This document shows positions 36,008 to 58,000 of a stretch of 64,000 nt of DNA, piece after piece. The DNA is taken from contig NZ_DS022277.1 of the NCBI RefSeq assembly GCF_000153725.1, positions 157,342 through 221,341 on the forward strand. The letters are read 5' to 3'. A program made the position numbers and the translations under genes. This DNA comes from Salipiger bermudensis HTCC2601 (lineage in GTDB: Bacteria > Pseudomonadota > Alphaproteobacteria > Rhodobacterales > Rhodobacteraceae). Positions within the stretch are counted from its first letter, which is position 1; every line of letters starts with the position of its first letter. The notes beneath the pieces were generated by a model. That model did not search any database. It was not told where the DNA came from and saw only the letters and a program-made list of their open reading frames with translations.

Positions 36008-36790
36008 TCACTCCGTACCCGAGGCGCCCATGACCGGGCGCCACTCTCGGCTCTCGCCCTGCCCGACGCGGTTCAGCGTCATCTCGAGCCGGAAGGTCTC
36101 GGGTAGGTAGAGGGCCTGCAGATACTCGACCCCACGTCCCTCGCGATCGCGCACGATCCGTCGCAACGACAGGAGCGGTGCGCCCGTCGCGACGGACAGC
36201 GCCTCTGCCACGTCTGCGCGGGCAAGCGTCGCGCTGACCGACTGGTGCGCGCTCTCCACCTCGACCCCGGAGCGCTCGAGCAGGGCATAGAGCGGCGAAC
36301 TCGCAAGGTCGGTCTCGGTGTAGTTCCGTGCGATCCGCTCGGGGACGTAGGTCGTCAGGTAGGACATCGGGCGGTCCTTGTAATAGCGCACCCGGATCGC
36401 TGTCTGGCACCTCTCCGACGGATCGATGGCCATCTGTTCGGCCACGTGAGGCGGCGCGATGTCATAAGTAAAGGACAGTAGGCGGGCGGTCGTTTCATGG
36501 CCGATCTGTTCCAGCTGCGGGATCAGCTTCGTGAAGTCCGCGTCCAGAGGTGCCTCCGCGACGTGGCCGCGAACGGCTCCGGTCTGGTCCCGCTTGATCA
36601 GGCCCTCGTCTTCGAGCGCGGCCAGCACCTTGCGCACCGTGGCGCGCGAGACTCCATACTCGGCGGCGAGGCGGGTTTCCCCGGGCAAGGCCGCCCCGTC
36701 CGCATGCGCCCCTGCGGTCAGACTGTCGCGAAGCAGAAGATAGACTCGACGGGCTTTGCCGCCCGGAGCCAGACCGATTGTTCCACTCAT
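36008..36790 (-). CDS. GntR/HutC-family regulator with UTRA domain (copy 1)
   Basis: A 260-residue regulator: winged HTH at about 10-80 (LPGETRLAAEYGVSRATVRKVLAALEDEGLI) and a UTRA effector domain at about 100-245 (LTTYVPERIARNY, LRRIVRDREGRGVEYLQALYLP). ATG 36790 has GGAAGGA with a 7-nt spacer; an extended frame upstream is not needed. Divergent from the amidase-ABC operon, its likely target. It is a clear paralogue of the regulator at 57218, sharing LTTYVP, VRD..G..VEYL..LY.P and the UTRA layout. Confidence 0.92.
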   Translation of the reverse strand: MSGTIGLAPGGKARRVYLLLRDSLTAGAHADGAALPGETRLAAEYGVSRATVRKVLAALEDEGLIKRDQTGAVRGHVAEAPLDADFTKLIPQLEQIGHETTARLLSFTYDIAPPHVAEQMAIDPSERCQTAIRVRYYKDRPMSYLTTYVPERIARNYTETDLASSPLYALLERSGVEVESAHQSVSATLARADVAEALSVATGAPLLSLRRIVRDREGRGVEYLQALYLPETFRLEMTLNRVGQGESREWRPVMGASGTE

Positions 36791-36827
36791 CCCTGTTCCT
36801 TCCGACCGAATGACCCGACGCAGTGCC

Positions 36828-36935
36828 ACTTGTTTGGGCAGGTTAGTCGGCCAGACCAGCCAAGCAAGTGTCAAGTGGACCAAACCGTTTGACGTGCAAA
36901 AATATAGCCATCTATTTGTAGTGCACATAATACAA
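36828..36935. promoter_or_regulatory. Candidate operators between GntR copy 1 and amidase operon
   Basis: ACTTGTTTGG (36828-36837) and CCAAGCAAGT (36860-36869) are inverted with one mismatch, their starts 32 bp apart. TTGTA (36916-36920) and TACAA (36931-36935) form a second inverted repeat with a 10-bp spacer. CATAATACAA (36926-36935) is 9/10 identical to CATTATACAA at 52897-52906, upstream of the ADP-forming acyl-CoA synthetase gene. Confidence 0.4.
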
Positions 36936-36980
36936 CTATGTTTCGCCGCCTTTGACGATACGCCCGGATTGAAGCCACGA

Positions 36981-37169
36981 ATGACACAGAGCACAAATCC
37001 TGACCCCATGGCCTTCGCCGCGCTGACGCAGCGCTCGGAGCAGACTGCCACCCAAGCCGAGGCCATGCGGCCCGGCAGCCACGACACCTCTGCCACGCAG
37101 ACCGGCGCGGCGCTCTGCAGCCACGCAAAGATGGCCGAGAGGCGCTGCCCGGGTCAGCGGGAGGTCTAG
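36981..37169 (+). CDS. Doubtful 62-residue ORF upstream of amidase operon
   Basis: ATG 36981 to TAG 37169. Third codon positions are mostly G or C, which favours coding, but no domain or convincing ribosome-binding site is visible and composition is low in hydrophobic residues. It ends 4 bp before the next small gene. It may be a real small subunit, a leader, or chance in GC-rich DNA. Confidence 0.3.
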   Translation: MTQSTNPDPMAFAALTQRSEQTATQAEAMRPGSHDTSATQTGAALCSHAKMAERRCPGQREV

Positions 37170-37173
37170 GGCG

Positions 37174-37371
37174 ATGGAGAAGACACAGCCCGACCCCGTC
37201 ACCGCCCTGATCCGCGACCGGCTCGACGGAAAGCGCGCCCTGCTGGACGAAGAACTCGCCCCCTGTGCCGCCGAAAGCGCCGCGATCGGCGCGGATGTTG
37301 CGGGCTTTCGCAACCGCCTGTCGCCCGGCTGCGGCCCCTTCGACTTCGAACTGGGGAGCCGCCGGAAATGA
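37174..37371 (+). CDS. 65-residue protein coupled to amidase
   Basis: A small soluble protein of unknown function. Third positions are almost all G or C, and its stop overlaps the amidase ATG by 4 bp (ATGA), so it is very likely translated with the amidase. Residues 8-50 could form helices (ALIRDRLDGKRALLDEELAP; ESAAIGADVAGFRNRL) and the tail reads GPFDFELGSR. Some amidase-signature hydrolases need a small GatC-like or AtzG-like partner, and this could be an analogue. I see no clear similarity to either. Confidence 0.6.
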   Translation: MEKTQPDPVTALIRDRLDGKRALLDEELAPCAAESAAIGADVAGFRNRLSPGCGPFDFELGSRRK

Positions 37372-38723
37372 GCCGCGACATCCGCCTGCTGTCCATCGCC
37401 GAGCTTCAGGCGCGCTATTCTGATGGCAGCCTGACGCCCTCCGAGACGACCGAGGCCTGTCTGTCCCGCGCCGAAGAGATGAATCCCGAACTGGGCGCCT
37501 TCATCTCGATAGACGCTCAAGCCGCGCGCGCCGCCGCTCAGACCCCGCGGCCGGGGGCGCTTTCGGGTGTGCCGCTGGCTCACAAGGACATCTTCGCGAC
37601 CCCGGACCGGCAGCCCGGGTGCGGCGTCGTGCGCGGGGCGCTGCCCTGTCCACCGCTGCCTCCGTCACCGCTTCTGGCACGCATGGAGGCGGCCGGCGCC
37701 ATCGACCTCGGTCCGCTGAACATGGCCGGGTTCGCGCTTGGCACGACCGGCGCGAACGCTCTGGTGGGCGATGCCCGCAACCCGTGGGACCCGGCCTTCT
37801 GCACCGGCGCCTCCTCGTCCGGCTCGGCGGTGGCGGTCGCGGCGGGGCTGGCCTTCGGATCGATCGGAACCGACAGCGGTGCCTCGGTACGGGTTCCTGC
37901 CGCGCTGTGCGGCATCGTCGGCTACATGCCCGAACACGGTGCGCTGGACGGCACCGGCTGCTTCCCGCTGAGCTGGTCCGCGGACCGGCCCGGCGTTCTG
38001 GCGCGCAACGTGGCCGACGCGGCCCTGCTGACGGCGGTGGCGCGGGGGCAAACGCCTGCACCGGTCGAACGCCCGGCGGGTCCACTGCGCATCGGCCTGC
38101 CCGAAAGCTACTATACAGAAGGCCTCAGCCCCGCGATGGCAGATGCGTTCAGCGCGGCGATCCGGCATATCGAGCAGTGCGGCCACAGCATCGTGCCCGT
38201 TCCGGTGGTCGAGACGACCGAGATGCGCTCGCTGCACCGGGCGCTGATGCGCACCGAGACCGCGGCGGTCCATCGCGCGATGATGTCGAGTCACCCCGCG
38301 CTCTACGAGCTCTCGGTGCGCAAGTTCATCACCGGCGGCGAGGGGATCCTCGCGGTGGATTACGTGGATGCCCTGAGGCTGCGCGCGGTCATGCAGGCCG
38401 AGGCGCGCCAGCTGACCTATGCCCATTGCGACGTGCTGCTGACGCCGACGACCCGCTCGCCCGCGCTGCGCTACGACGCGATCGCCGACACCTCTCGCGC
38501 AGAGACATGGGCACAGGTGACCGGGCTTGCGCATTTCACCCAGCCCGCCAGCTACCTTGGCCTGCCCGCCATCTCGGTGCCCTTCACGCTGAGCCCGGAC
38601 GGGCTGCCCCTTGGCGTTCAGCTGATCGCCCCCGCCGAACGCGAGGCGACGCTGCTGTCCGCGGCCTTGGATTTCGAGCGCCATTGGACCGACCTTGCGG
38701 CCTTCCCGCCCCTTGCCGGCTGA
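37368..38723 (+). CDS. Amidase-signature hydrolase
   Basis: A 451-residue AS-family enzyme. The Ser-cisSer-Lys triad is visible: Lys73 (AHKDIF), Ser of GASSSGSAVAV (about 149-151), and nucleophile Ser173 in GTDSGASVRVP. The usual GGSS...GTDTGGS is altered to GASS...GTDSGAS, conservative changes. It cleaves an amide or carbamate, or an aryl/alkyl acyl-amide. Followed after 37 bp by an ABC importer, so the substrate is probably brought in by that system. GatA is excluded by the operon context and the absence of GatB. Confidence 0.9.
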   Translation: MSRDIRLLSIAELQARYSDGSLTPSETTEACLSRAEEMNPELGAFISIDAQAARAAAQTPRPGALSGVPLAHKDIFATPDRQPGCGVVRGALPCPPLPPSPLLARMEAAGAIDLGPLNMAGFALGTTGANALVGDARNPWDPAFCTGASSSGSAVAVAAGLAFGSIGTDSGASVRVPAALCGIVGYMPEHGALDGTGCFPLSWSADRPGVLARNVADAALLTAVARGQTPAPVERPAGPLRIGLPESYYTEGLSPAMADAFSAAIRHIEQCGHSIVPVPVVETTEMRSLHRALMRTETAAVHRAMMSSHPALYELSVRKFITGGEGILAVDYVDALRLRAVMQAEARQLTYAHCDVLLTPTTRSPALRYDAIADTSRAETWAQVTGLAHFTQPASYLGLPAISVPFTLSPDGLPLGVQLIAPAEREATLLSAALDFERHWTDLAAFPPLAG

Positions 38724-38760
38724 CCCGGCACCCCGCGAACACCCCAACAGGAGAAACAAA

Positions 38761-39771
38761 ATGACGACGAAAATGACCCGCCGCGCCTTTGCCAGTATGG
38801 CACTTGCCGCCCCGTTGGTGATCCGCTCGGGCACCCGGCTCTCGGCACAGACGCTGAGGGAAATCAATTACATCACTCCCTACGGCAACTCCACCGTCTA
38901 CGCCCCCGACTACGTGGCCATCACCAATGGCTACTTCGAGGAGCAGGGCCTCAAGGTGAACCTGATCCCCGGCAACGGCTCCTCCGCGTCGGTCCAGCAG
39001 CTGCTGGCTGGCCAGGTCCAGATCGCTCGCACCGGCGGGCTCGACCTGATCGCGGCGCTGTCGACCGGCAACGCGCCGATCCGCGCGTTCGGCACCATCG
39101 CCCACACCTCGACCTGGTGGATCATCTCGGGCGCCGACGCGCCGATTGAGACCCCCGAGGACTTCCGGGGCAAGACCATCGGCATCGTTTCGGCCGGTGG
39201 CGGATCGGAAAAGGTGATCGACATCCTTCTGGCCGGCGCCGGCGTGCCCAAGGACGAGGTCACCTTCCAGGTGGTCGGCAACTCGCCCGGCTCGATGGAC
39301 CTGATCGAGATGGGCCGCCTCGACGGCTTCATCGGCGACATGTCCGTCTGGGCGCCGCTGAACGATCGCGGCGCGGCGATGCACGCGATGTCGCTCGACC
39401 CCTACATGGACGTGCCGGGGCAGGTCTACTTCACCACCAACGAGATGCTTGAGACCGACCCCGATGTCTGCCTCGCCTACATGCGTGCCGTGAAAAAGGC
39501 GGTTCAGGTCATCGAGGCCGACGAGACCGGCGCCGCCAGCATCGAGGCGATGATGCCCTTTGCGTTCCCGGAGCTCGACACTCCCGAGGCCGCGACGCTG
39601 ACGCTGCAGGCCGAGAAGGAGCTGTGGGTCGCCCGGGGCGACGAGGGCATCGGCAAGATCTATCCCGAGGCCTTTGCCAAGGGCTGGGAACAAATGGCCG
39701 CCGCGAACCTGTCTGATCCCGACATGGACCCCTCGGTCGCCTACACCACCGCCATCTCGGATCAGCTCTGA
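38761..39771 (+). CDS. ABC importer substrate-binding protein, NMT1/SsuA type
   Basis: A 336-residue periplasmic protein with Tat-like signal TRRAFASMALAAPLVI. The fold is NMT1/SsuA-like: YVAITNGYFEEQGLKVNLIPGNGSSASVQQLLAGQVQIA and PEDFRGKTIGIVSAGGGSEKVIDILL. ATG 38761 has AGGAG upstream. Family members bind aromatic and aliphatic sulfonates, taurine, thiamine precursors or phthalate-like acids. The ligand here is unknown, but the amidase context suggests an amide or its acid. Confidence 0.92.
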   Translation: MTTKMTRRAFASMALAAPLVIRSGTRLSAQTLREINYITPYGNSTVYAPDYVAITNGYFEEQGLKVNLIPGNGSSASVQQLLAGQVQIARTGGLDLIAALSTGNAPIRAFGTIAHTSTWWIISGADAPIETPEDFRGKTIGIVSAGGGSEKVIDILLAGAGVPKDEVTFQVVGNSPGSMDLIEMGRLDGFIGDMSVWAPLNDRGAAMHAMSLDPYMDVPGQVYFTTNEMLETDPDVCLAYMRAVKKAVQVIEADETGAASIEAMMPFAFPELDTPEAATLTLQAEKELWVARGDEGIGKIYPEAFAKGWEQMAAANLSDPDMDPSVAYTTAISDQL

Positions 39772-39798
39772 GCCAACGCAAGCACGAACAGGACCACA

Positions 39799-40548
39799 AT
39801 GACTGTCGCTATTTCATGCCAACAGGTCAGCAAGACCTACGAGACCCGCAACGGACCGGTGAATGCCCTGAGTCCCTGCGATCTCGAGATTTCACCTGGC
39901 GAGTTCGTCGTCCTGCTGGGGCCCTCGGGCTGCGGCAAGACGACCCTGCTGCGCATGATCGGCCGGCTTCATGACCACACGTCCGGTTCGCTTGATCTGA
40001 CCCCTGTCGAAGCCGGTGAAACCACCACCGGCTTCGTCTTCCAGCAGGCCAACCTGATGCCCTGGATGACCGTGGAGGAGAACGTGGCCCTGCCGCTGCG
40101 TCTCAAGAAACAGCCCAAGGCCACCCGGATGGAGACGGCGCGCGACCTGTGCAGCCGCGTGGGCCTCGAGAATTTCACCAAGAGCTGGCCCCGCGAGCTC
40201 TCGGGCGGCATGCAGCAGCGTGTCTCGATCGCACGCGCGTTGGCCGATGACCCCCAGCTTCTGCTCATGGACGAACCCTTCGGCGCGCTGGACGCGCTGA
40301 CCCGGACCCGCATGAACAGCGAGCTGGAACGGCTGTGGATGGCCTCCGGCGCCACCGTGGTTCTGGTCACGCATTCCATCACCGAGGCGATCATGCTGGC
40401 CGACCGCATCGTGGTGATGAGCGCGCGCCCCGGTCGCATCGTCAGCGAGACCCGCGTGCCATTCCCGCGGCCACGCGGCACCCAGATCGAGAACACCCCC
40501 GAATTCCAGGCCATCGCGGCCGACCTTCGCAGCCAGTTGGAGCACTGA
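39799..40548 (+). CDS. ABC importer ATPase, SsuB/TauB type
   Basis: A 249-residue ATPase. Walker A GPSGCGKTT, Q-loop VFQQANLMPW, signature ELSGGMQQRVSIARAL, Walker B LLMDEPFGALD, switch VTHSITEA. ITEAIMLADRIVVMSARPGRI and the DEPFGALD sequence are typical of the nitrate/sulfonate/taurine branch. It pairs with the permease starting 2 bp after its stop. Confidence 0.95.
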   Translation: MTVAISCQQVSKTYETRNGPVNALSPCDLEISPGEFVVLLGPSGCGKTTLLRMIGRLHDHTSGSLDLTPVEAGETTTGFVFQQANLMPWMTVEENVALPLRLKKQPKATRMETARDLCSRVGLENFTKSWPRELSGGMQQRVSIARALADDPQLLLMDEPFGALDALTRTRMNSELERLWMASGATVVLVTHSITEAIMLADRIVVMSARPGRIVSETRVPFPRPRGTQIENTPEFQAIAADLRSQLEH

Positions 40549-40549
40549 C

Positions 40550-41320
40550 ATGAACCGGATCAGGCATTTCGCACCCGGCATCGTGTCGGTCGTGGGCTTC
40601 TTCGCAGTGTGGGAGATCTACTGCCGCATGTCGGGGATCAACCCGCTCATCCTGCCGCCGCCCAGCCAGATTGGAGCGATTTTCTTCGACGTCGCGCTGG
40701 ATCCGCGCACCCTGCGCCACGCCAGCATTACCCTGACCGAGACACTGGCCGGCTTCGGGCTTGCCACGGTGATCGGTATGACCGTGGGCTGGGCCGTCGC
40801 CGCCTCTCCGCTGATCGAGCGCGCGGTGCACCCGTTCATCGTCGCGAGCCAGGTCATCCCCAAGGTGGCGCTGGTGCCGCTGTTCGTGGTCTGGTTCGGC
40901 TTCGGCATGACCTCGAAGATCGTCGTGGCGGCCGTCATCGCCTTCTTCCCGGTGCTGGTGAACACCGTTCTCGGCCTGCGCTCGGTTCAGCCCGGGCACG
41001 CGGATGTGTTCCATTCGCTGAAGGCCACCCTGTGGCAGCGCATCTGGCTGCTGCAAATTCCTTCGGCCCTGCCGGCCATTCTGGCGGGCATGGAGATGGC
41101 GATCGTGCTGGCCACGATCGGCGCCGTGGTCGGCGAATTCCTCGGCGGCAGCAGCGGCCTTGGCTACATGGCCGTGGCGACGATGAACGCCTTCCAGACC
41201 GACCGTCTGTTCGTCATCATCATCCTGCTGACGCTCATCGGCTTTGTCCTCTACGCCATGATGGCGGGGCTGAAACGCGCGCTCGTCTCATGGTCGGACA
41301 ACCAGAAGGCAGGGTCCTGA
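40550..41320 (+). CDS. ABC importer permease, SsuC/TauC type
   Basis: A 256-residue permease with about six TM helices, LPPPSQI near the N-terminus and the cytoplasmic EAA-type coupling loop (around VFHSLKATLWQRIWLLQIPSALPAILAGMEMAI). VGEFLGGSSGLGYM matches the SsuC/TauC group. ATG 40550 follows the ATPase stop by 1 nt. It is 3 bp from the acyl-CoA dehydrogenase gene, so transport and catabolism share one transcript. Confidence 0.95.
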   Translation: MNRIRHFAPGIVSVVGFFAVWEIYCRMSGINPLILPPPSQIGAIFFDVALDPRTLRHASITLTETLAGFGLATVIGMTVGWAVAASPLIERAVHPFIVASQVIPKVALVPLFVVWFGFGMTSKIVVAAVIAFFPVLVNTVLGLRSVQPGHADVFHSLKATLWQRIWLLQIPSALPAILAGMEMAIVLATIGAVVGEFLGGSSGLGYMAVATMNAFQTDRLFVIIILLTLIGFVLYAMMAGLKRALVSWSDNQKAGS

Positions 41321-41323
41321 GCC

Positions 41324-42463
41324 ATGCTCGAACCCGATGAGAACCAGCGCCTGATCCTCGATACGGTCGACCGTTTCATGGCGCGCCACATGCCGTCCGA
41401 AGAGGCCGGCCGCCGGGACGAGGCCCACACCCCGCCATATGACCTGCTGCCGCATCTCGGTGAAGCCGGGTTTCTGGGACTGCCCGTCCCGGAGGCGCAT
41501 GGCGGGCTGGGCCTCGACTGGACCACCATGGCGCTGGTGCAGGAGCGGCTGGCCTGGCACGCCTATGCGGTCGGCTCGATCGTCAACCGCGTGGTGGGCT
41601 TCGGGGCGATGTCGGTCCTGTCCTACGGATCCGAGGCCCAGAAGGCCCGGCTGCTGCCGCGCATCACCTCCGGGCGCTGCCTGATCGCGCTGGCCCTGAC
41701 AGAACCGCAGGCGGGATCGGATGCGGGTGCAATCCGCACCCGGGCCGAGCGCAGCGGCGATGGCTGGGTCCTGACCGGCGGCAAGACCTGGATCAGCGAC
41801 GCCGGCGGCGCCGATTACCTGCTGACCGCCGCGCGCACCGACCCCGACAGCCGTGGCTCGCGCGGGGTCTCGATGTTTCTCGTGCCGCGCGACGCGCCCG
41901 GCATCGCCATGACCCAGATCCCCAAGGTCGGCAACAATTGCATGCCGAGCTGGGAGATCGGCCTTGATGGCGTGCAGGTGGGCGCGGAAGCGCTGATGGG
42001 CGAGGAGGGCAAAGGGTTTTCCGGCCTGATGTCGACCCTGCACTACTCGCGCGCCAGTATGGCCGCGACGGTGCTGGGCTGTGCGCAGGCGGCGCTGGAT
42101 CTCACCATCGCCCATGCCAAAGAGCGCAAGCAGTTCGGGCGCCCCATCGGGTCGTTCCAGACCATCCGCCACCGGATCGCCGACATGCAGATGCGCGTCG
42201 ATGCCACCCGGCTGGTCGTGCGCCACCTCGCCTGGATGATCGCCGAGGGGCGCGACAGCAGCCGCTTTGCCTCGCAGGCGAAGGTTCAGGCCACCGAATG
42301 CCTGCAATTCGTGACCGATCACGGCATGCAGATCCTCGCCAGCGCCGGCTATGCCCGCGAAAGCGCCATGCAGCGCTACTGGCGCGACGCACGGCTCTAT
42401 TCCTTCGGGGAGGGCTCGAACGAAATTCAGCGCGACCTCATCGCGCGCCAGCTTGGCCTTTGA
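41324..42463 (+). CDS. Acyl-CoA dehydrogenase family protein
   Basis: A 379-residue FAD enzyme. The FAD/CoA segments LALTEPQAGSDAGAIRTRA and KTWISDAGGADYLLTAART, RKQFGRPIGSFQTIRHRIADMQ, and the C-terminal FGEGSNEIQRD with candidate base Glu363 are intact. It is at the short end of the family length range. It would introduce an alpha,beta double bond in a CoA thioester, which fits the two acyl-CoA synthetases nearby. Start 3 bp after the permease gene. Confidence 0.92.
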   Translation: MLEPDENQRLILDTVDRFMARHMPSEEAGRRDEAHTPPYDLLPHLGEAGFLGLPVPEAHGGLGLDWTTMALVQERLAWHAYAVGSIVNRVVGFGAMSVLSYGSEAQKARLLPRITSGRCLIALALTEPQAGSDAGAIRTRAERSGDGWVLTGGKTWISDAGGADYLLTAARTDPDSRGSRGVSMFLVPRDAPGIAMTQIPKVGNNCMPSWEIGLDGVQVGAEALMGEEGKGFSGLMSTLHYSRASMAATVLGCAQAALDLTIAHAKERKQFGRPIGSFQTIRHRIADMQMRVDATRLVVRHLAWMIAEGRDSSRFASQAKVQATECLQFVTDHGMQILASAGYARESAMQRYWRDARLYSFGEGSNEIQRDLIARQLGL

Positions 42464-42494
42464 GACGCGCCGAGGCGCAAGGGAGACAGACGAC

Positions 42495-43355
42495 ATGCAC
42501 GACATTATGGCCATCGACACGGTTGTGAACCTGTTCACCGACGAGGTCGAGGCGCTGCGCCCGGCCAACCGGAAGCAGTTCTATCAAGGCAAGATGAAGG
42601 TCAGCGACTCGACCATGAACGGCGTCTCGCTGGACGAGATGCTGCGCCGCATGGATGCGGCAGGGATCGAGAAGTCCTTCCTGATCGCCGCCAAATGTGG
42701 CCCCGAGGGCCCCGCCGCCTGCTACCGCCTGCCCCCCGCGATGGTGGCGCGGGCGGTGAAGGCGCATCCCGACCGGTTTCTCGGGATGATCGGCATCGAT
42801 CCGACCGAAGGCATGACCGGCGTACGCGAGATGGAGCACGCGATCACCGAGCTGGGCTTTGTCGGCGCACATTCCTATCCGCACTGGTTCGAGCTCGCGC
42901 CCAACCATGCGCGCTACTACCCGTTCTATGCCAAGTGCGTGGAGCTGGACGTGCCGATGCAGCTTCAGGTCGGCCAGTCGATGATCTACGATCCGACCTA
43001 TCCGCGCCGCTCGGTCGGCCGGCCGATCACGCTCGACGACGTCGCCTGCGACTTCCCCGAGCTGAAGCTCATCGGCATTCACGTGGGCATCCCGTGGACC
43101 GAGGAGATGATCGCGATGGCGTGGAAACACCGCAACGTCTACATCGCCTCGGACGCGCATTCGCCCAAGTACTGGCCGGAGAGCTTCAAGCACTACATCC
43201 GCTCCTACGGGCAAGACAAAGTGCTGTTCGGGACCGATTTCCCGGTCCTCGACTTCGAACGCACACGGAACGAGATCGAGGCCATGGAGCTGCCCGAGGC
43301 CGCGAAGCGCAAGTTCCTGCGCGACAACGCCCGCCGCCTCTACAAGCTGGACTGA
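42495..43355 (+). CDS. Amidohydrolase_2-family metal hydrolase or decarboxylase, N-terminal HxH missing
   Basis: A 286-residue TIM-barrel protein of the Amidohydrolase_2/ACMSD-type family. The family normally starts with a D-x-H-x-H metal motif, but here the start is MAIDTVVNLFTDE, with no HxH. Other likely ligand residues remain: GAHSYPHW (about 128-135), GIHVGIPWTEEM, and the C-terminal FGTDFPVLDFERTRNE with its Asp. Such proteins hydrolyse lactones or amides or decarboxylate aromatic acids. ATG 42495 has GGGAGAC upstream. End of the amidase operon. Confidence 0.82.
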   Translation: MHDIMAIDTVVNLFTDEVEALRPANRKQFYQGKMKVSDSTMNGVSLDEMLRRMDAAGIEKSFLIAAKCGPEGPAACYRLPPAMVARAVKAHPDRFLGMIGIDPTEGMTGVREMEHAITELGFVGAHSYPHWFELAPNHARYYPFYAKCVELDVPMQLQVGQSMIYDPTYPRRSVGRPITLDDVACDFPELKLIGIHVGIPWTEEMIAMAWKHRNVYIASDAHSPKYWPESFKHYIRSYGQDKVLFGTDFPVLDFERTRNEIEAMELPEAAKRKFLRDNARRLYKLD

Positions 43356-46507: not shown

Positions 46508-46577
46508 TCGGAACCTGTGCTGTCTTGTTGAGGGGGCGAAACCGCCGCCCCCCAGTGAGAACGGATCGGTGGCGCGA

Positions 46578-47630: not shown

Positions 47631-47645
47631 ATGTCAATAAGACAT
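47631..47645. promoter_or_regulatory. Inverted repeat between TAXI and AMP-ligase genes
   Basis: ATGTC-AATAA-GACAT is a perfect inverted repeat containing T-N11-A (T47632, A47644). It lies in the 162-bp divergent gap, 91 bp upstream of the TAXI start and 58 bp upstream of the ligase start. Confidence 0.4.
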
Positions 47646-49229: not shown

Positions 49230-49577
49230 TCAGCGCTGCCCATCCTCGGGCAGCAGCCTGAAGACGGGATAGCCATCCGGGCTTGCGTCCAGCTCGACCC
49301 GGGCGCCGCAGCGGGGCGCGTCGGATCCGGTCAGCCGACCGGGAAGGCGCAGCCCCTCCTCGAGATCGATCAGCGCGATGATGTAGGGCACCTCCTCGCC
49401 GAACGCGGACGAGGGCGCGCGATGCACTTCGGTAAAGGTGTAGACCGTGCCGCGCCCCGATGGCGTGAACGGCACGGTGTCCGGCGAATGACACGCGGGA
49501 CAAAGCGGGCGCGGGTAGGCGCGCGGTTGCCCGCAGGCCTCGCAGCGCACCACGGTGTCGAAGGGGGCGTTGCCCAT
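49230..49577 (-). CDS. DUF35 OB-fold/zinc-ribbon protein
   Basis: A 115-residue protein with a rubredoxin-like zinc ribbon (CEACGQPRAYPRPLCPACH, Cys12-15 and Cys26-29) and an OB-fold domain (TVYTFTEVHRAPSS onward). DUF35 proteins pair with thiolase-like enzymes, and with Ltp2-type aldolases they form retro-aldolases. Its ATG shares one base with the stop of the thiolase-like gene (TGATG), so the two are co-translated. Confidence 0.92.
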   Translation of the reverse strand: MGNAPFDTVVRCEACGQPRAYPRPLCPACHSPDTVPFTPSGRGTVYTFTEVHRAPSSAFGEEVPYIIALIDLEEGLRLPGRLTGSDAPRCGARVELDASPDGYPVFRLLPEDGQR

Positions 49578-50749: not shown

Positions 50750-52851
50750 CGACTCAGCACCACGAGCGCGTCACAGACCGTGGCGCCCTGCCCCGCTTCG
50801 CCGACGATGACCGGGTTGAGGTCGAGCGTCTCGATGCGGCCATCGCTGCCCATGCCCAGATCCGACAGCGTCGTGATCGTGCGCACCAGCGCGGACACGT
50901 CTGCTGGCGCCCGGCCTCGATGGCCGTCGAGCAGCGGCCACCCGCGCAACTGGCGCAACATCGACAGCGCCTCGTCCTCGCTCACCGGGAGCAGGCGATG
51001 CGCCACATCCTCCAGCAGCTCGGCCATGATCCCGCCCAAGCCGACGGTCAGCACCATGCCGAAGACCGGGTCACGTGACAGGCCGAGGATCATCTCGACC
51101 CCGGGGGCCGCCATTTCCTCGATCAGGAAGCCCCGCAGCTCGAGGTCCGGAGCCACCTCGCGGATCCGCGCGCCCATCTCTTCGGCGGCGGCGCTGGCCG
51201 TGGCGCCGTTCAGGTTCAGCTGCACACCGCCGAGTTCGGTCTTGTGACCGATCTCGGCCGACAGGATCTTGACCACGACCGCCCCGCCGAGACGGTCGGC
51301 CAGCGGTCCAGCGTCGGCTGCGGTTTCGGCCACCATCCCGCGCGGCACGTCGAAGCCGTTGGCGGCGAGGAAGGCCTTCGCGTCCGCCTCGTCCGGCTGG
51401 CCGGGCAACGTGTCCAGCCCCTGAACCGGCGGCACCGGGGCGACCACCGGCCGGGCCGCCTGTGCGAGCTCCGCGTAGCGCGCGGCGGCATCGATGACCT
51501 GCATGGCGGGGGCAATGTCGCGGAAGACCGGCAGGCCCATGCGGACCAGCTCGGCATGGGTCAAGGTGTCGTCGTCGGTGCAGTTGCCGCTCCAGATCAC
51601 CGCGCAGGGCTTGGGGCTTGCCAGAAGCGCCTGCGCCGTACCCCGGATAAGCTCGGCAGAATGCAGGGTCAGGACCGGTAGGATCACGTCCACGGCCGGG
51701 TCCTGTGCGATTGTCTCCAGCACCCCGGCAAAGATCTCGGGCGAGCCGATCGCTGCCGAGGTGACGTCGGCGGGGTTCGAGGCCTGCCCGTAATTCGGGA
51801 TCAGCTCGGCCATCCGGGTCTTGGTCGCGCTGCCGAAGTCGGGAAAGGCAAGGCCATGCATCGGACCCTGGTCGGCAAGGTGCACGAGGTTCCCCCCCGA
51901 GATCGACACCGCCGCCAGTCCGCGCCCACCCAGTCTCCGGCCTGTGCGCAGCATCATCGCCACGTCGATCATCTCGTGACAATCGTCGACGCGCAGGATG
52001 CCGAGCTGGCGCAGGACGTCATCGGCCACGCTGTCGCTGCTGGCCAGCGCCCCGGTATGCGACACCGCCGCCTGCATGCCCTCTTCCGAGCGCCCGAGCT
52101 TCATCATCACGATGGGCTTGTCCGCGGCGCGCGCCCGGTCGGAGAGCGCGCGCAGCTTGCCGCCGTCACGGATGGTTTCGGCCAGCATCAGGATGACACG
52201 GGTCTCGGGGTCGTCGACCATGAAGGCCGCGTAGTCGAGGATGTCGAGATCCGCGTCGTTGCCGCAGGACACCTGGTAGCTGATCCCCAGCCCGGCCTGC
52301 TGGGCGCGGTACATCACATTGACCTGGGCCAGCCCGCCGGAATGACCGAGGACCGCGACATCGCCTTTGGGCGCGCGCGGACCGTTGATTGTCGCGGTAG
52401 AGGTCAGGGCAAAACCGTCGACATAGTTGATCAGGCCGTTGCAATTGGGCCCCATCAGGCGAATGCCGTGTTCCCGTGCCAGGGCGACGATCTCTGCCTG
52501 GAAGGCGGCGCCGTCGGCGCTGCCGCCCTCGGAGAAGCCGGAGCTGAAGATCGTGACATGGCGCACGCCACGATCTCCGCACTGTTTCAGGACGCCGGGT
52601 ATGGCCTTGCCAGGCACGACGATGCCGACGTGGTCGGGCGCCTCCGGAAGGCTGGCGATGTCAGGGTAGCAGGGCATGCCCAGGATGGTGTCGGCCTTTG
52701 GATTGACCGGGTAGATCCGCCCCTCATAGCCGAAATCGACAAGCTGCTTCAGACAGCGGCCGCCGAATTTCCTCAGGTCCGCGCTGGCGCCGACGAGGGC
52801 CGCCGATTTGGGCGAAAAGAACGGTTTCAGGTCGGGAAAGCTGGCCGGCAT
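50746..52851 (-). CDS. ADP-forming acyl-CoA synthetase (fused alpha-beta)
   Basis: A 701-residue NDP-forming acyl-CoA synthetase. A CoA-binding domain (KSAALVGASADLRKFGG, about 15-31) and succinyl-CoA-ligase-like domains carry the phospho-His265 in VSHTGALAS. A C-terminal ATP-grasp domain (about 470-701; VVKILSAEIGHKTELGGVQLNL and GVEMILGLSRDPVFGMVLTVGLGG) completes the enzyme. It interconverts acyl-CoA and acid with ADP/ATP, and so could conserve energy at the end of the pathway or activate the substrate cheaply. First gene of the synthetase-thiolase-DUF35 operon. Confidence 0.92.
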   Translation of the reverse strand: MPASFPDLKPFFSPKSAALVGASADLRKFGGRCLKQLVDFGYEGRIYPVNPKADTILGMPCYPDIASLPEAPDHVGIVVPGKAIPGVLKQCGDRGVRHVTIFSSGFSEGGSADGAAFQAEIVALAREHGIRLMGPNCNGLINYVDGFALTSTATINGPRAPKGDVAVLGHSGGLAQVNVMYRAQQAGLGISYQVSCGNDADLDILDYAAFMVDDPETRVILMLAETIRDGGKLRALSDRARAADKPIVMMKLGRSEEGMQAAVSHTGALASSDSVADDVLRQLGILRVDDCHEMIDVAMMLRTGRRLGGRGLAAVSISGGNLVHLADQGPMHGLAFPDFGSATKTRMAELIPNYGQASNPADVTSAAIGSPEIFAGVLETIAQDPAVDVILPVLTLHSAELIRGTAQALLASPKPCAVIWSGNCTDDDTLTHAELVRMGLPVFRDIAPAMQVIDAAARYAELAQAARPVVAPVPPVQGLDTLPGQPDEADAKAFLAANGFDVPRGMVAETAADAGPLADRLGGAVVVKILSAEIGHKTELGGVQLNLNGATASAAAEEMGARIREVAPDLELRGFLIEEMAAPGVEMILGLSRDPVFGMVLTVGLGGIMAELLEDVAHRLLPVSEDEALSMLRQLRGWPLLDGHRGRAPADVSALVRTITTLSDLGMGSDGRIETLDLNPVIVGEAGQGATVCDALVVLSR

Positions 52852-53377: not shown

Positions 53378-54223
53378 ATGAGCATTGCAGCGGATCCGAC
53401 CGCCGCCGACCGGTCCGCGCCTTCGGGCCAGCCGGCCCCGGCGCGTGAAGGCGCCATCGAAATAGATGGCATCACCAAGGTCTATGACACCAAGGGTCAG
53501 CGCACGCTGGCCGTCGAAGACGTGAGCCTAGAAATCGAGCCGGGAGAGTTCGTCGTGCTGATCGGCCGGTCCGGCTGCGGCAAGAGCACCCTGCTCCGCA
53601 CGCTGGCGGGCCTGCAGGCGCCGACCGACGGTGCGATCCGCATCAGCGGCCAATCGCTCTATTCCCCGGAGGGCAAGGCCGTGCCCGAAGTCATCGGCGA
53701 CCTCGGGTTCGTGTTCCAGGATGCCAACCTACTGCCGTGGCGCTCGGTATGGAAGAACATCGCCTTGCCGCTGGAGGTGCAGCGCATGTCCCGTCCCGAC
53801 CGGCGCCGCCGCGCCGAGGAGCTGGGAGAGCTTTCGGGGCTCAGCGAATTCCTCGATCACCTGCCCCGGCAGTTGTCGGGCGGGATGCGCCAGCGGGTCG
53901 CGATCATGCGGGCGCTGGCGCCCGAGCCGTCGATCCTGTTGATGGATGAACCGTTCAGCGCGCTGGATGCGATCACGCGGGACGAGTTGAACATGGCCCT
54001 GCAGCTGATCTGGCTCGAGTTTCGCAAGACCGTGGTGCTGGTCACGCACTCGATCACCGAGGCGGCCTTCCTTGCCGACAAGATCGTCCTGCTGTCGCCG
54101 CATCCGGGACGGCTGCAGAAGGTCATCAAGGTCGACTTCCCGCGTCCCCGCCCGCTGGAACTGACCAAGGACGACGCCTTCCAGTCGCTCGTCGCCGAAC
54201 TTCGGACGGAGCTGGGGGAATGA
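53378..54223 (+). CDS. ABC importer ATPase, SsuB/TauB type (second system)
   Basis: A 281-residue ATPase. A 30-residue N-terminal tail precedes the core. Walker A GRSGCGKST, Q-loop VFQDANLLPWRS, signature QLSGGMRQRVAIMRAL, Walker B LLMDEPFSALD, switch VTHSITEA. It resembles the ATPase at 39799 in the nitrate/sulfonate branch. ATG 53378 is preceded by AAGGAG. Its stop overlaps the permease start (ATGA). Confidence 0.93.
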   Translation: MSIAADPTAADRSAPSGQPAPAREGAIEIDGITKVYDTKGQRTLAVEDVSLEIEPGEFVVLIGRSGCGKSTLLRTLAGLQAPTDGAIRISGQSLYSPEGKAVPEVIGDLGFVFQDANLLPWRSVWKNIALPLEVQRMSRPDRRRRAEELGELSGLSEFLDHLPRQLSGGMRQRVAIMRALAPEPSILLMDEPFSALDAITRDELNMALQLIWLEFRKTVVLVTHSITEAAFLADKIVLLSPHPGRLQKVIKVDFPRPRPLELTKDDAFQSLVAELRTELGE

Positions 54224-55068
54224 CGATGACCAACCGCGACGACGCAAGCCCCGTCCGCAGCATGGCTCCCGCAGAGGGTGGGCGGTCCCTTCGAGAGCTG
54301 CTCGACACTTACCTGACCTGGATAACCACGCCACTGCTGCTGCTGGCCTTCATCGCGCTGTGGAAGCTTTATGTCGTGGTGCTCGACATCAGCCCCTTCA
54401 TGCTGCCCCCGCCAGAGGCGGTGGCGCTGGCGCTGGTCGAGCTGCTCCAGGAGCCGTTCTTCTGGAATTTCTTCCGCATCACCGTGACCGAGATCCTGGT
54501 GGGGTTCGGCCTCGCCGTCGTGGTGGGGGCGGGGCTGGGCATCCTGCTCGGACGCTCGAAGTTGTTCGAGCGCATCGCCTCGCCCTTCATCGTCGCTTCG
54601 CAGGTGACACCCAAGGTGGCGCTGATGCCGCTGTTCCTTCTGTGGATGGGCTTCGGCATGCAATCCAAGATCGCCATGGTGGTGCTGCTGTCCTTCTTCC
54701 CGGTGATGAAGGCCACGATCCTCGGCGTCCGGTCGATCGGAAGCGAACAGCGCGACCTGTTCACGGTGATCCGCGCACCGGTCTGGAAGCGTTTGCTGTC
54801 GCTCGATGTACCAGCGGTGCTTCCCTACCTGCTGACCGGCATCGAGACGGCCAGCGTGCTTGCCGTGACCGGCGCCATCGTCGGCGAGTACCTCGGCGGC
54901 AACGAGGGCCTTGGCGCGATGGTGGTCATGACGCTGAACGCCATGCGCGTCGACCAGATGTTCGCCACGATCGTCGCCCTCGCGATCTTCGGCTTCCTTT
55001 TCTACGCGGTGATCGCCTCGATCCGGAAGATCGCCGTGCCCTGGCACGATTCAGCACAGAACGACTGA
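54220..55068 (+). CDS. ABC importer permease, SsuC/TauC type (second system)
   Basis: A 282-residue permease with about six TM helices from residue 35 on, LPPPEAVALALV near the first periplasmic loop and the coupling-loop region RAPVWKRLLSLDVPAVLPYLLTGIE. VGEYLGGNEGLGAMVVM corresponds to VGEFLGGSSGLGYM in the first permease, so the two systems are homologous. Start overlaps the ATPase stop by 4 bp. Confidence 0.93.
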   Translation: MTMTNRDDASPVRSMAPAEGGRSLRELLDTYLTWITTPLLLLAFIALWKLYVVVLDISPFMLPPPEAVALALVELLQEPFFWNFFRITVTEILVGFGLAVVVGAGLGILLGRSKLFERIASPFIVASQVTPKVALMPLFLLWMGFGMQSKIAMVVLLSFFPVMKATILGVRSIGSEQRDLFTVIRAPVWKRLLSLDVPAVLPYLLTGIETASVLAVTGAIVGEYLGGNEGLGAMVVMTLNAMRVDQMFATIVALAIFGFLFYAVIASIRKIAVPWHDSAQND

Positions 55069-55136
55069 ACCGGGCCCGCCCCCGGGATCCGATCCCCGGA
55101 CACCCGTGCAAATCCACAACAGGAGAGCTTGACGAC

Positions 55137-56174
55137 ATGACCATCGACAGAAGAACCTTCCTTACCGGCGCCTCGGGCGCGACCGTTACCGCCACGCTGG
55201 GCGCTGCCAGCGTGACCTTCGGCCTGGGATCACCCGCCGCCGCGCAGGGTATGGCGCAGACCTACATGGCCCCCTCGCGCCTGACGCTGTTCCAGGGCTT
55301 CATCCTTGCCGCCGAAGCGCGCGGGTATTTCACCGACGAGGGGCTGGATATCACCGTGCAACCCGGCACCGGCACCGCCATCGCCGTGCAACAGGTGACC
55401 GCTGGTGCCACCGCCTTCGGCCTCGCCGGCCCCTCGACCACCTGCCCGCCAATCGCCAACCAGGGCGCGCCGCTGGTGTCGATCGGCCAGATCGGCTATC
55501 GGAACTTCTGGGAAATTGCCTCGCTCCCCGACAAGCCGCTGACCCATCCCTCCGAATTCCAGGGCAAGACGATCGGCATCGCCTCCGTTGGCGGCGCCAT
55601 CGACAAGCACCTCGACCTGATGTCGATGGCCGAAGGGCTCGATCCGAGCAACGTCAACAAGGTCGTCACCGGGCTCGGCCCCAGCGGCTATGCCTTTCTC
55701 GAGCGGGGCGAGGTCGACGGCTTCTTCGTGTTCTACGAATCCAAGACCGCATTGCTGGAGCAGGGGGTCGAGCTGCACTACATCGCCGCCGACGATTTCG
55801 CCCCCCTGCCCTCTGACGCGCTGATCACTTCGACCGACTTTGCCGAGGACCCCGCGAATGAAGAGGTCATCGTCAAGTTCCTGCGCGCCTGCCGGCGAGG
55901 TGTCGAAGCGATGCAGGATCCGGCGAACTACGAGGACATCATCGGATACCTCGCAACCTATAATCCAATCGAGGGCGCTGAGGTCGAGAAGGGCAAGAAG
56001 ATCCTCGATGCGCTGAAATTCTACATGACACCGCCCGAGGGCGTGGCGCAGATGGCCTTCAGCGAGGCGGACTGGGCCAGGGCGATCGAGTTGCTCGAGG
56101 TGTCCGGCGCCATCGAGACACCCGGCACCCCGCCGGAGCGGTTCTATACCAACCGCTTCATCTCGCAGGTCTGA
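55137..56174 (+). CDS. ABC importer substrate-binding protein, NMT1/SsuA type (second system)
   Basis: A 345-residue periplasmic protein with Tat signal (DRRTFLTGASGATVTATLG). NMT1/SsuA-like: FILAAEARGYFTDEGLDITVQPGTGTAIAVQQVTAGATAFGLAG and FQGKTIGIASVGGAIDKHLDLMS. ATG 55137 has AGGAGAG upstream. Gene order is ATPase-permease-binding protein, the reverse of the first system (binding protein-ATPase-permease). Confidence 0.93.
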   Translation: MTIDRRTFLTGASGATVTATLGAASVTFGLGSPAAAQGMAQTYMAPSRLTLFQGFILAAEARGYFTDEGLDITVQPGTGTAIAVQQVTAGATAFGLAGPSTTCPPIANQGAPLVSIGQIGYRNFWEIASLPDKPLTHPSEFQGKTIGIASVGGAIDKHLDLMSMAEGLDPSNVNKVVTGLGPSGYAFLERGEVDGFFVFYESKTALLEQGVELHYIAADDFAPLPSDALITSTDFAEDPANEEVIVKFLRACRRGVEAMQDPANYEDIIGYLATYNPIEGAEVEKGKKILDALKFYMTPPEGVAQMAFSEADWARAIELLEVSGAIETPGTPPERFYTNRFISQV

Positions 56175-56255
56175 CCCCTGCGCGCTATAAAGCAACGACG
56201 CCTGCCGCCCCGCCCGGGCGGCGGGCCCCTGCTTAGGTCCGTGCGTGCGGAGCGA

Positions 56256-56858
56256 TCAGCCGGGCTGTTTCATCTGGAACGTGTCGGTCAGGCGCGCGTA
56301 ATGCCCCTGACCGGAGATGCGCCCGATGGCGCCCAGCCGGTCACCGTCGCAGCACAGATCCGGTCCGAGCAGCCCGTCATGGGCATGCACCTGAAGGACC
56401 TCGGCGACCACCGCGACGTGGGGGCGCGTGCCGATATCGAGGAATTGCGCCACCCGGCATTCCAGTTGCACCGGGAATTCGGCCAGCCGCGGCGGCGCCA
56501 CCGCAACCGAGGGCTTCAGGGCGAAGCCCTGTTCGGCCACTTCGCTCTGCTCGCGGGGCAGCGACGCGGCGCAGGCGTTCATCCGGGCCGCCAGCGCCTC
56601 GGGGACGATATGCACCACGCATTCGGGCAGATCACGCAGGTTGCAGATGGTATCCTTCTCGCCACCGTCGCGCGGCCCGGCCGAGAAGATCAGCGTTGGC
56701 GGTGCGACGCCGAGCATGGTGAAGAAGCTGAAGGGCGCGGCATTCCAGCCCGCCGGGCCTTGCGTGACCACGAGGGCAATCGGCCGCGGCACGACGATAC
56801 TGGACAGCAGTCGGTATTGCTCGGCGGCGGACAGGGATGTCGGATCTAGGTCGGTCAT
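56256..56858 (-). CDS. Flavin reductase-like protein (DIM6/NTAB family)
   Basis: A 200-residue protein of the flavin-reductase-like family. IVVPRPIALVVTQGPAGWNAAPFSFFTMLGVAPPTLIFS is the flavin-binding block; KDTICNLRDLPECVVHIV follows. These proteins reduce FMN with NAD(P)H for a two-component monooxygenase, or bind flavin as stand-alone enzymes. ATG 56858 was chosen; a GTG at 56870 would add four residues. No FMNH2-dependent oxygenase is adjacent; the closest are the LLM enzymes 37 kb away. Confidence 0.88.
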   Translation of the reverse strand: MTDLDPTSLSAAEQYRLLSSIVVPRPIALVVTQGPAGWNAAPFSFFTMLGVAPPTLIFSAGPRDGGEKDTICNLRDLPECVVHIVPEALAARMNACAASLPREQSEVAEQGFALKPSVAVAPPRLAEFPVQLECRVAQFLDIGTRPHVAVVAEVLQVHAHDGLLGPDLCCDGDRLGAIGRISGQGHYARLTDTFQMKQPG

Positions 56859-57217
56859 AGTCTCTTGCACTGCAGCGAGCGCCGCGGAGATCTGGGAGGG
56901 GAGGCCGGAAAGGGCATGGATTCAATGGGAAAAGTAGAGGCGGAAAAATGTATTGTATACCCGACACGAAGCGATCGAAGCGGCTTTCGGGCGGCCCTGC
57001 ATTCTCTTTATGCAGGAATGGCATGGCAAATGGCCGGAATTGTTGCCCTGCTGGTCAAGTTCGGCACGGGAATGGCCAATCGGGCAGGCCGAGTATTTAC
57101 GCGATAATGGACGCCTAGCGTTTTTCGCCCTAATACGAATAGGCAGCCTTTTTTCGGGCTGCGACTCCCGGCCTCGCCGGGCCATGTTTCACCAGAATTT
57201 TCCTGCCAGGAGATCCC
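56859..57217. other. 359-bp divergent region between flavin reductase and GntR copy 2
   Basis: No gene. AT-rich at 56930-56970 with a GTAT-TGT-ATAC palindrome at 56950-56960, a candidate operator. The right end carries two tandem hairpins described at 57143-57181. Confidence 0.5.
57143..57181 (+). other. Two tandem hairpins in the leader of GntR copy 2
   Basis: GCAGCC (57143-57148) pairs with GGCTGC (57157-57162) around a U-rich loop TTTTTTCG. Directly after it, CCCGGC (57167-57172) pairs with GCCGGG (57176-57181). Together they lie about 27 bp before the ribosome-binding site, so they could modulate translation or act as an attenuator. Confidence 0.4.
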
Positions 57218-58000
57218 GTGCGCAACCGCATCATGCTGGACCAAGAAGAGGTGACGCCGAAACACCATCAGGCCTATCTGCTCCTGCGCCAGCGGATCGA
57301 GGATGGTGTTTACCCGGTCGACAAGCCCATGCCGTCAGAGCCCGAACTGACCGCGATGTTCGGTGTTTCGCGCATCACCATTCGCCGCGCGCTGGAACGG
57401 CTACAGTCCGAGGGGCTGATTTCGCGGGCGCGGGGGCGAGGGACATTCCCGCTGGAACTGCCGCGCAAGACGACGAGCGTCGGGGCCGAGATCAGCGGAA
57501 ACTTCGACAACCTCGTCGCCATGGGGCTGAAATCCCGTGCCCGGCTGATCGAGTTCGCCTATGTCACGCCACCCGAGGACATCCGCACCGCCCTCGACCT
57601 GACGCCGGACGCCAAGGTGCAGCGCGCCGTTCGGGTGCGGTCGGCGGACGACAAGCCGTTTTCGCACCTGACAACCTACGTGCCCCGCGAAATCGGGCAG
57701 AACTTCTCTTCGGCCGACCTCGAAGCGCGGCCGTTGCTACTGCTGCTCGAAGCCCAGGGCCACCGGATCCACTCCGCGACGCAGGCGCTCTCGGCGCGGC
57801 TGGCCGACCATCAGGTCGCACAGGTGCTCGAAGTCAGTCCCGGCTCGGCACTGCTGTGCATCCGCCGCCTGGTACGCGACGCGACGGGCAAGCCGGTCGA
57901 ATACCTCGAGGGGCTGTATCGTCCCGACATGTATGAGTATTCCCAAAACCTCCTACGCGACGAAAACCTCGACGGTGTCGCCTGGACACCCCGCGACTGA
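57218..58000 (+). CDS. GntR/HutC-family regulator with UTRA domain (copy 2)
   Basis: A 260-residue regulator, the same length as copy 1. Winged HTH at about 15-80 (MPSEPELTAMFGVSRITIRRALERLQSEGLI) and a UTRA domain at about 100-245 (LTTYVPREIGQNF, IRRLVRDATGKPVEYLEGLYRP). The GTG start at 57218 has AGGAG six nt upstream. It faces the flavin reductase gene and follows the second ABC importer; with copy 1 it brackets the 36-58 kb island. Confidence 0.92.
   Translation: MRNRIMLDQEEVTPKHHQAYLLLRQRIEDGVYPVDKPMPSEPELTAMFGVSRITIRRALERLQSEGLISRARGRGTFPLELPRKTTSVGAEISGNFDNLVAMGLKSRARLIEFAYVTPPEDIRTALDLTPDAKVQRAVRVRSADDKPFSHLTTYVPREIGQNFSSADLEARPLLLLLEAQGHRIHSATQALSARLADHQVAQVLEVSPGSALLCIRRLVRDATGKPVEYLEGLYRPDMYEYSQNLLRDENLDGVAWTPRD

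Follow-up and report, generated by a model that had tools for sequence, protein, structure and literature searches.

The steroid side-chain aldolases of the Sal/Shy and Ltp2/ChsH2-DUF35 systems have a thiolase fold that has lost its canonical nucleophilic cysteine, a zinc-ribbon DUF35 protein as neighbour, and an acyl-CoA ligase and a dehydrogenase nearby (PMC12329534). These features return in a gene island at 36008-58000 of the window, by which we mean the whole 64,000-nucleotide stretch of Salipiger bermudensis HTCC2601 DNA analysed here; unlike the steroid systems, the island has no MaoC hydratase domain and does have small-acid importers and an amidase, together with two enzymes of altered active site, termed AH2 and ABH. 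The original prediction, made from the DNA letters, held that the island, lying between two GntR/UTRA regulator genes, is one candidate undescribed catabolic system. We lean towards reading it as one modular, patchily distributed catabolic system, because its genes re-assemble, reshuffled, near AH2 in distantly related bacteria. Text searches of open-access literature listed no described pathway with this gene combination, as had been supposed.

Recurrence of island genes around AH2

AH2 (42495-43355, plus strand), a TIM-barrel protein of the Amidohydro_2 family, was aligned with two Variovorax relatives and used as probe to scan a genome collection. The scan gave 326 relatives, in records whose titles name Alpha-, Beta- and some Gammaproteobacteria; the 80 highest-ranking were taken together with as much as 10 kb of flanking sequence on either side. 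An AMP-forming acyl-CoA ligase (AMP-ligase; 47703-49187, plus) at least 40% identical to that of the island is present in 72 of the 80 loci, 58 times within 200 bp of AH2; the acyl-CoA dehydrogenase (ACAD; 41324-42463, plus), at 33% identity or more, in 40 (26 within 200 bp); and ABH (43380-44204, minus), a protein of alpha/beta-hydrolase fold, at 40% or more, in 21 (7 within 200 bp). All three accompany AH2 in 18 loci, and none does in 7. The 18 loci holding all four core genes show eight distinct arrangements of them, a variety that speaks against simple inheritance of a single block.

The controls were 20 stretches of 20 kb, lying apart from AH2, in five genomes that carry it; against them we set the 43 of the 80 loci that are at least 20 kb long, the 37 shorter ones being left out. 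AMP-ligase (at least 40%) was found in 41 of 43 AH2 loci, ACAD (at least 50%) in 18, NMT1 binding proteins in 19, Tct binding proteins in 24, UTRA regulators in 15, isochorismatases in 24 and LeuCD in 8, in each case against 0 of 20 controls; any C-N hydrolase was found in 29 against 3 of 20, and ABH (at least 40%) in 14 against 1. The sole ABH-bearing control comes from a genome with AH2 elsewhere; a 43% ABH homologue lies away from AH2 at L193 6684-7436, in an AH2-bearing genome. ATP2-like ATPases are not enriched (6/43 against 7/20), nor are flavin reductases (1/43 against 1/20), so that the flavin reductase, counted at first as a member of the system, has no comparative support. MmgE (6/43), the TAXI binding protein (4/43) and the binding protein of the second ABC importer (2/43), each against 0/20, are too rare to judge. 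The amidase, tried as a marker of the system, was discarded: 60 relatives gave no close counterpart, and it is not enriched around AH2. The claim of a single system stands insofar as core genes recur near AH2 and, one ABH apart, not in controls, and that of conservation as a unit insofar as much of the gene set recurs near AH2 in distant bacteria. They give way in that the system is modular, its importers and amide hydrolases vary, its order is shuffled and there is no fixed block.

Mechanical gene picking over the window, with profile searches, gives the island 20 genes. UTRA1 (36008-36790, minus) is followed on the plus strand by a small open reading frame of 65 residues (37174-37371) overlapping the start of an amidase-signature amidase (37368-38723), an NMT1-type ATP-binding cassette (ABC) importer, ABC1 (38761-41320: binding protein SBP1 38761-39771, ATPase ATP1 39799-40548, permease perm1 40550-41320), ACAD and AH2. 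In the middle, ABH and a TAXI-TRAP importer (44201-47522: fused permease 44201-46507, TAXI binding protein 46578-47522) are read from the minus strand, AMP-ligase from the plus strand, and a DUF35 protein (49230-49577), a thiolase-like protein (49577-50749) and an ADP-forming-type acyl-CoA ligase (ADP-ligase; 50746-52851) again from the minus strand. A second NMT1-type importer, ABC2 (53378-56174, plus: ATP2 53378-54223, perm2 54220-55068, SBP2 55137-56174), the flavin-reductase-like gene (56256-56858, minus) and UTRA2 (57218-58000, plus) complete the set. All the gene classes first named between the UTRA genes are indeed there by Pfam and NCBIfam searches, and the coordinates first given for the two UTRA genes are exact, both proteins having 260 residues. 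Curated NCBIfam cut-offs were passed by the TAXI binding protein (132.3 against 84.35 bits) and the fused TRAP permease (572.1 against 320.65); among the best 25 models listed, none was reached by the amidase, the ligases, ACAD, AH2, ABH, the UTRA proteins or the thiolase-like protein. AMP-ligase had no solved structure at E <= 1e-60.

Two relatives are particularly telling. Oceanibacterium hippocampi (locus L041) has a UTRA gene, then ACAD-AH2, ABH-TRAP permease-TAXI and AMP-ligase in the same order as the window, at identities of 79% (ACAD), 85% (AH2), 74% (ABH), 78% (TRAP permease), 79% (TAXI) and 76% (AMP-ligase); the amidase and ABC1 are replaced there by HyuB, HyuA, an isochorismatase and a PrpB-like lyase, with LeuC and LeuD behind the regulator. 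Chelativorans sp. Marseille-P2723 (L080, extended in L161-L163) has counterparts of 16 of the 20 genes; apart from ABH, they form two divergent operons. One strand reads UTRA, ADP-ligase (65%), aldolase-type thiolase-like protein (72%), DUF35 (50%), a small open reading frame, amidase (51%), SBP1 (54%), ATP1 (69%) and perm1 (70% over 250 residues); the other reads ACAD (67%), AH2 (71%), AMP-ligase (44%), ATP2 (75%), perm2 (79%) and SBP2 (69%), with ABH (65%) beyond. Fifteen island proteins are thus matched at 44-79% identity, the aldolase lying about 4.6 kb from AH2. Between them the two species provide an AH2-locus counterpart for every island gene except the flavin reductase, that of the small open reading frame being such by position and length only. 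After the Chelativorans ABH the same strand carries thiD, a ThiG-ThiE fusion, a ThiO-like FAD oxidoreductase and thiC (L080 16390-20834), the link with thiamine being unproven. Elsewhere, in locus L050, an ADP-ligase, a crotonase, an ACAD and the aldolase follow one another, and DUF35 is the next gene once the stretch is extended (L165); this row reads as a predicted ligase, dehydrogenase, hydratase and aldolase set; aldolase and DUF35 also occur in AH2 locus L105.

The system is rare in its own family, AH2 being found at E <= 1e-110 in 4 of 374 family genomes, its own included; in a sample at class level it was found at E <= 1e-85 in 21 of 385, own included. The aldolase was found only in its own genome, at E <= 1e-120 in the class sample (1/385) and at E <= 1e-110 in the family sample (1/374), counts for which scoring was confined to the 4-5 top candidates from a first look at each genome. 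Permease 2 was found at E <= 1e-80 in 2 of 385 genomes, and the second copy adjoins AH2. AH2 cores occur on large plasmids too, as the records of Variovorax from soil contaminated with linuron and of Comamonas endophytica show (L038 16740-22264, L039, L181 13905-19351), with Tct binding proteins and IclR regulators nearby.

Altered active sites and a candidate aldolase

The metal motif of Amidohydro_2 enzymes is an N-terminal D-x-H-x-H. AH2, which matches the family profile from profile position 67 on, lacks the HxH of the metal-dependent members: it has D-x-V-x-N at the place of the motif, with Val in 90 and Asn in all of 92 sequences, the window's included, and His126, His130, His196, His222 and Asp248 are invariant in the 92. 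(The AH2 residue counts, and those of His100 and Asp233 in ABH below, leave out L161-L163, L165, L167-L169 and L175-L177, meant as duplicates of earlier loci.) The AH2 model, with a predicted local distance difference test (pLDDT) score of 92.8, has as nearest structures LigW-type and resorcylate decarboxylases, the uncharacterised 3IRS and the hydratase LigJ. The group of 3IRS (BB4693), LigW, gamma-resorcylate decarboxylase and LigJ are its neighbours in sequence as well as fold, and AH2 differs from them in having VxN where HxH presumably stands; 3IRS is uncharacterised by its own title.

Classical alpha/beta hydrolases use Ser, Cys or Asp as nucleophile and a C-terminal His. ABH has the fold (model pLDDT 93.7, with dehalogenases, C-C hydrolases and esterases among the nearest structures) but not these residues: His100 occupies the nucleophile elbow in 23 of 23 sequences, the window's included, Asp233 is invariant, and the C-terminal stretch of the 23 has no conserved His, there being none in columns 255-265 and one at 254 in only two sequences. 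From these residues ABH is unlikely to be a serine hydrolase.

The thiolase-like protein had been called Cys-less. This is right for the canonical nucleophile, AGASG aligning with the ACASG of 6ESQ, and wrong for the protein as a whole, which has another Cys in the motif Y286-D-C-F. The motif aligns with Y294-D-H-F of TcLtp2 and reads YDCF in four of five relatives and YDSF in the fifth. According to PMC12329534, the Y-D-C motif is shared with Sal and an SCP2-thiolase-like protein, Sal uses Y302 and C304 of its Y-D-C-Y, and the zinc ribbon of Sal's partner is a Cys3His1 variant. The OB/zinc-ribbon DUF35 protein adjacent to the island's enzyme carries a C4 ribbon, C-x2-C-x10-C-x2-C. Tyr344, the second catalytic tyrosine of Ltp2, is not conserved, the aligned residue being His. 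The thiolase-like protein and DUF35 form a candidate Sal-type retro-aldolase.

Regulators, amide hydrolases and a second locus

UTRA1 and UTRA2 are 37% identical over 244 residues, and so are paralogues as predicted, though not each other's nearest. The UTRA profile finds seven UTRA genes in the genome, one of which, UTRA3 (G000:C6:339333-340139), is closer to both, at 56% to UTRA1 and 45% to UTRA2. The Oceanibacterium regulator is 63% identical to UTRA1 and 64% to UTRA3, and the Chelativorans one 49% identical to UTRA2. Since Chelativorans has one UTRA gene, in mid-locus, the two UTRA genes cannot be regarded as a special bracketing pair. Neither reaches the HutC equivalog cut-off of 220 bits (UTRA1 93.3, UTRA2 107.8).

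Between UTRA1 and the amidase operon, at 36916-36935, lies the palindrome TTGTA-N10-TACAA, the sole exact match in the 5.48-Mb genome; it occurs, also exact, in the UTRA promoter of the Oceanibacterium locus. With one mismatch it precedes UTRA3 and one further UTRA gene of the same genome, and was accordingly rejected as an island-specific element; at up to one mismatch it occurs 18 times per strand genome-wide, fewer than a reversed control pattern (100 per strand). It looks like a putative autoregulatory operator of this group of UTRA regulators, which is no proof of one regulon. Promoter elements are conserved only pairwise, between island and Oceanibacterium: the 13-base TGTCTTATTGACA element of the divergent TAXI/AMP-ligase promoter (47632-47644, minus) is identical and in the same place there. 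It is not enriched in the Chelativorans locus, where the 10 matches with 3 mismatches compare with an expected 5.8.

The C-N hydrolases around AH2 are of several kinds: isochorismatase-family proteins are found in 40 of the 80 loci, HyuA in 8, polysaccharide-deacetylase-family proteins in 5, dihydroorotase-family proteins and nitrilases in 4 each and amidases in 2, with at least one such type in 47. In 7 of 21 loci whose gene order was mapped, an isochorismatase gene separates the NMT1 binding-protein gene from that of the ATPase; both the window and Chelativorans have the amidase next to this importer. We read this as various enzymes doing what may be one job, C-N hydrolysis of the imported compound; importers and predicted amide hydrolases vary between species. 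As in the AtzE-AtzG pair, the amidase is a signature enzyme with a small overlapping partner, presumably AtzG/GatC-like by position only. The partner has no Pfam match, was not recognised as an AtzG-type subunit, and has no significant similarity to the 71-residue open reading frame at the same place in Chelativorans. The amidase itself differs from AtzE-AtzG and IaaH in missing every NCBIfam cut-off among the best 25 of 26 models: it scores 206.1 against 425.75 bits for AtzE and 257.2 against 532 for the IaaH equivalog. Two of three isochorismatase representatives match biuret and ureidoacrylate hydrolases best, below cut-off, and the third has no match.

UTRA3, the paralogue nearest UTRA1, lies in a locus of its own on the 4.08-Mb contig (G000:C6:334427-347406; L209, L210). 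On one strand are genes which by their sequence encode a DctPQM-type TRAP importer, then LeuD, LeuC and UTRA3; on the other, a tautomerase/SnoaL-like two-domain protein, HyuB, HyuA, an isochorismatase, a PrpB-like lyase with the motif KRCGH, and an FAD protein of the flavocytochrome-c/TcuA group. LeuD, LeuC, UTRA, HyuB, HyuA, isochorismatase and PrpB-like lyase are 54-82% identical to genes inside the Oceanibacterium AH2 locus. A very similar locus is present in the family member G649, on a contig other than that of its AH2, and in two further members (L175 with L224, L177 with L225) the AH2 cluster is itself continued by HyuA, HyuB and PrpB-like lyase (62-64%), isochorismatase (66-67%) and more distant LeuC and LeuD (32-41%). 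HyuA at 61% or more was found in 6 of 12 chosen AH2-bearing genomes and in 0 of 12 congeners (Fisher p 0.014), the congeners not having been tested for AH2. This co-occurrence is only suggestive, because of that gap, because two of the six genomes have HyuA beside AH2, and because Chelativorans lacks a close HyuA (best 44%); the link to the second locus is therefore not universal. The system may nonetheless extend to a partner locus under UTRA3.

KRCGH is the signature of the PrpB methylisocitrate lyase. The lyase carries it and scores 290.5 bits against the PrpB equivalog cut-off of 354.4. With its aconitase-family hydratase and PrpB-like lyase the second locus resembles the lyase modules of the methylcitrate cycle and of nicotinate fermentation; it differs in that no citrate synthase was noticed, HyuAB and an isochorismatase are paired with the lyase, and the PrpB cut-off is not reached. 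For HyuA of this locus and HyuB of the Oceanibacterium one, caprolactamase CapAB is the best-scoring named NCBIfam model, from which they differ in neighbourhood and in score (524.5 and 298.2 bits against cut-offs of 1000).

The island itself is on an 814-kb contig of the 5.48-Mb, six-contig genome. Because this contig has a RepC gene it is likely to be a RepABC-type secondary replicon; a weaker RepC match is also present on the 4.08-Mb contig, taken as the chromosome. We saw no sign of fresh insertion, though no search was made for insertion sequences: G+C in 2-kb windows shows no step at the island edges, and by ARAGORN the window has no tRNA gene. Plasmid DNA relatives numbered 28 matching records, none with a single place covering 80% of the query. 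Elsewhere in the window, reading of the sequence suggests a TRAP importer (849-3621) adjoining a class I P450 system of ferredoxin reductase, 2Fe-2S ferredoxin and cytochrome P450 in a row (3694-6406); a three-subunit, CoxLMS-like molybdenum hydroxylase (19375-23145); and an arginine catabolic unit (24066-26059 with 23476-23850), with arginase-like and ornithine-cyclodeaminase-like genes beside an Lrp/AsnC-type regulator. Beyond UTRA2, at 58237-63948, a convergent operon with PdxA2-like, SerA-like dehydrogenase, DapA-like aldolase, TctA/TctC and small TctB-like genes, again as read from sequence, probably serves a separate sugar-acid or dicarboxylate pathway.

A pathway model and its rivals

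Each enzyme belongs to a known superfamily, and the peripheral catabolic island as a kind is known; it is the combination for which we propose a model. The steps of the original prediction—import, amide cleavage, CoA activation, desaturation, retro-aldol cleavage—fit the families and motifs found, and the reactions would run as follows. The NMT1-ABC and TAXI-TRAP importers would take up a small amide-bearing organic acid, from which the amidase would free acid and ammonia; AMP-ligase would then make the CoA ester and ACAD desaturate it. AH2 and/or ABH would perform the next, non-hydrolase-like step, hydration or decarboxylation being likeliest since the island lacks crotonase and MaoC and the structural neighbours of AH2 include decarboxylases and a hydratase. 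Profile searches found no crotonase or MaoC gene among the 20, so AH2 or ABH may fill the hydratase step. The Sal-like aldolase with DUF35 would cleave the beta-hydroxyacyl-CoA, ADP-ligase feeding or following this reaction. The UTRA3 locus probably serves the same or a connected substrate, through what would be ring opening by HyuAB, isochorismatase-type amide hydrolysis, FAD-dependent desaturation, aconitase-type hydration by LeuCD and cleavage of methylisocitrate-lyase type. As to the substrate, our guess is that a branched di- or tricarboxylic acid, masked as an amide or imide, is the probable one.

Several results tell against a single system. The near-complete set is found in one other genome only, Chelativorans, whose AMP-ligase is just 44% identical and which has no close HyuA; ABH turns up in one control; amidase (2/43 against 2/20) is not enriched, nor are HyuAB (6/43 against 1/20) or the PrpB-like lyase significantly so. 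The aldolase (4/43), the TRAP permease and DUF35 (3/43 each), ADP-ligase (2/43) and the PrpB-like lyase (6/43), each against 0/20, are too rare to judge. The extra references (isochorismatase, HyuAB and the like) were picked from AH2 loci and so favour the test set, the Oceanibacterium regulator is as close to UTRA3 as to UTRA1, and no palindrome common to all four divergent promoters was found. Some of this suits an arrangement of two systems side by side, in which the left two thirds, UTRA1 through AMP-ligase, form one pathway, and ADP-ligase, aldolase, DUF35, ABC2 and UTRA2 a second, unrelated retro-aldol pathway: Oceanibacterium has left-part genes only at its locus and no aldolase match in its genome at E <= 1e-60, and the aldolase is seldom near AH2. 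We consider it unlikely, given that Chelativorans has aldolase, DUF35, ADP-ligase and amidase in a one-strand row and ABC2 after ACAD-AH2-AMP-ligase, that a permease-2 homologue (50%) adjoins AH2 in genome G223, and that aldolase and DUF35 are present in AH2 loci L050/L165 and L105. The idea that unrelated peripheral catabolic operons came together by chance on a large replicon of RepABC type would suit the RepC gene and the other small catabolic operons read in the window, but is strongly weakened by repeated co-location in distant taxa, in differing orders and against control regions, and by the finding of rare genes together; we think it very improbable. Steroid or bile-acid side-chain degradation, to which the Sal-like motif and DUF35 partner would point, is scarcely credible for an island with no MaoC or crotonase hydratase among its 20 genes and importers of small-acid type, in a window whose gene list, as read from sequence, has no ring-degradation gene (the rest of the genome was not searched).

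The nature of the compound opened is a separate matter. The polysaccharide-deacetylase family includes allantoinases. The pair of this family in Comamonas, the dihydroorotase-family genes of 4 of the 80 loci, a ureidoglycolate-lyase-family gene in L112 and the two isochorismatases nearest biuret and ureidoacrylate hydrolases would all suit a front end acting on cyclic ureides or hydantoins, pyrimidine- or allantoin-like, instead of imides, amidase and isochorismatases then being ureido or carbamoyl hydrolases. This is possible, if on the unlikely side: HyuA and HyuB score best against caprolactamase, and the LeuCD, PrpB-like and TcuA-like partners in the second locus suggest an aconitate-like carbon skeleton, which ureides would not give. 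Imidase and dihydropyrimidinase are reported to be in one family (PMC4437985). A more specific idea, improbable as it stands, is that island and UTRA3 locus together degrade maleimides or succinimides bearing substituents, for example hematinic acid and methylethylmaleimide, which arise when tetrapyrroles are broken down. HyuAB would open the imide and isochorismatase or amidase strip the nitrogen off the half-amide; LeuCD would hydrate the alkylmaleate, a methylaconitate homologue; the PrpB-like lyase would yield pyruvate and a plain acid, glutarate or butyrate, to be burned via AMP-ligase and ACAD; and with AH2 and ABH one would have new enzymes of decarboxylase or hydratase type. Genetic work on bacterial degradation of hematinic acid or maleimides was not found among the titles listed by a text search of open-access literature.

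What our preferred reading, of one modular catabolic system, provides is a defined recurring gene set, with AH2 as its marker, for use of a carbon and perhaps nitrogen source for which our searches matched no described pathway. It places a Sal-like aldolase in a seemingly non-steroid setting, and brings to light two conserved enzyme subfamilies whose active sites are altered, an alpha/beta hydrolase with His for Ser and an amidohydrolase without HxH. Should the imide idea prove true, the microbial fate of the maleimides of chlorophyll and haem would become testable.

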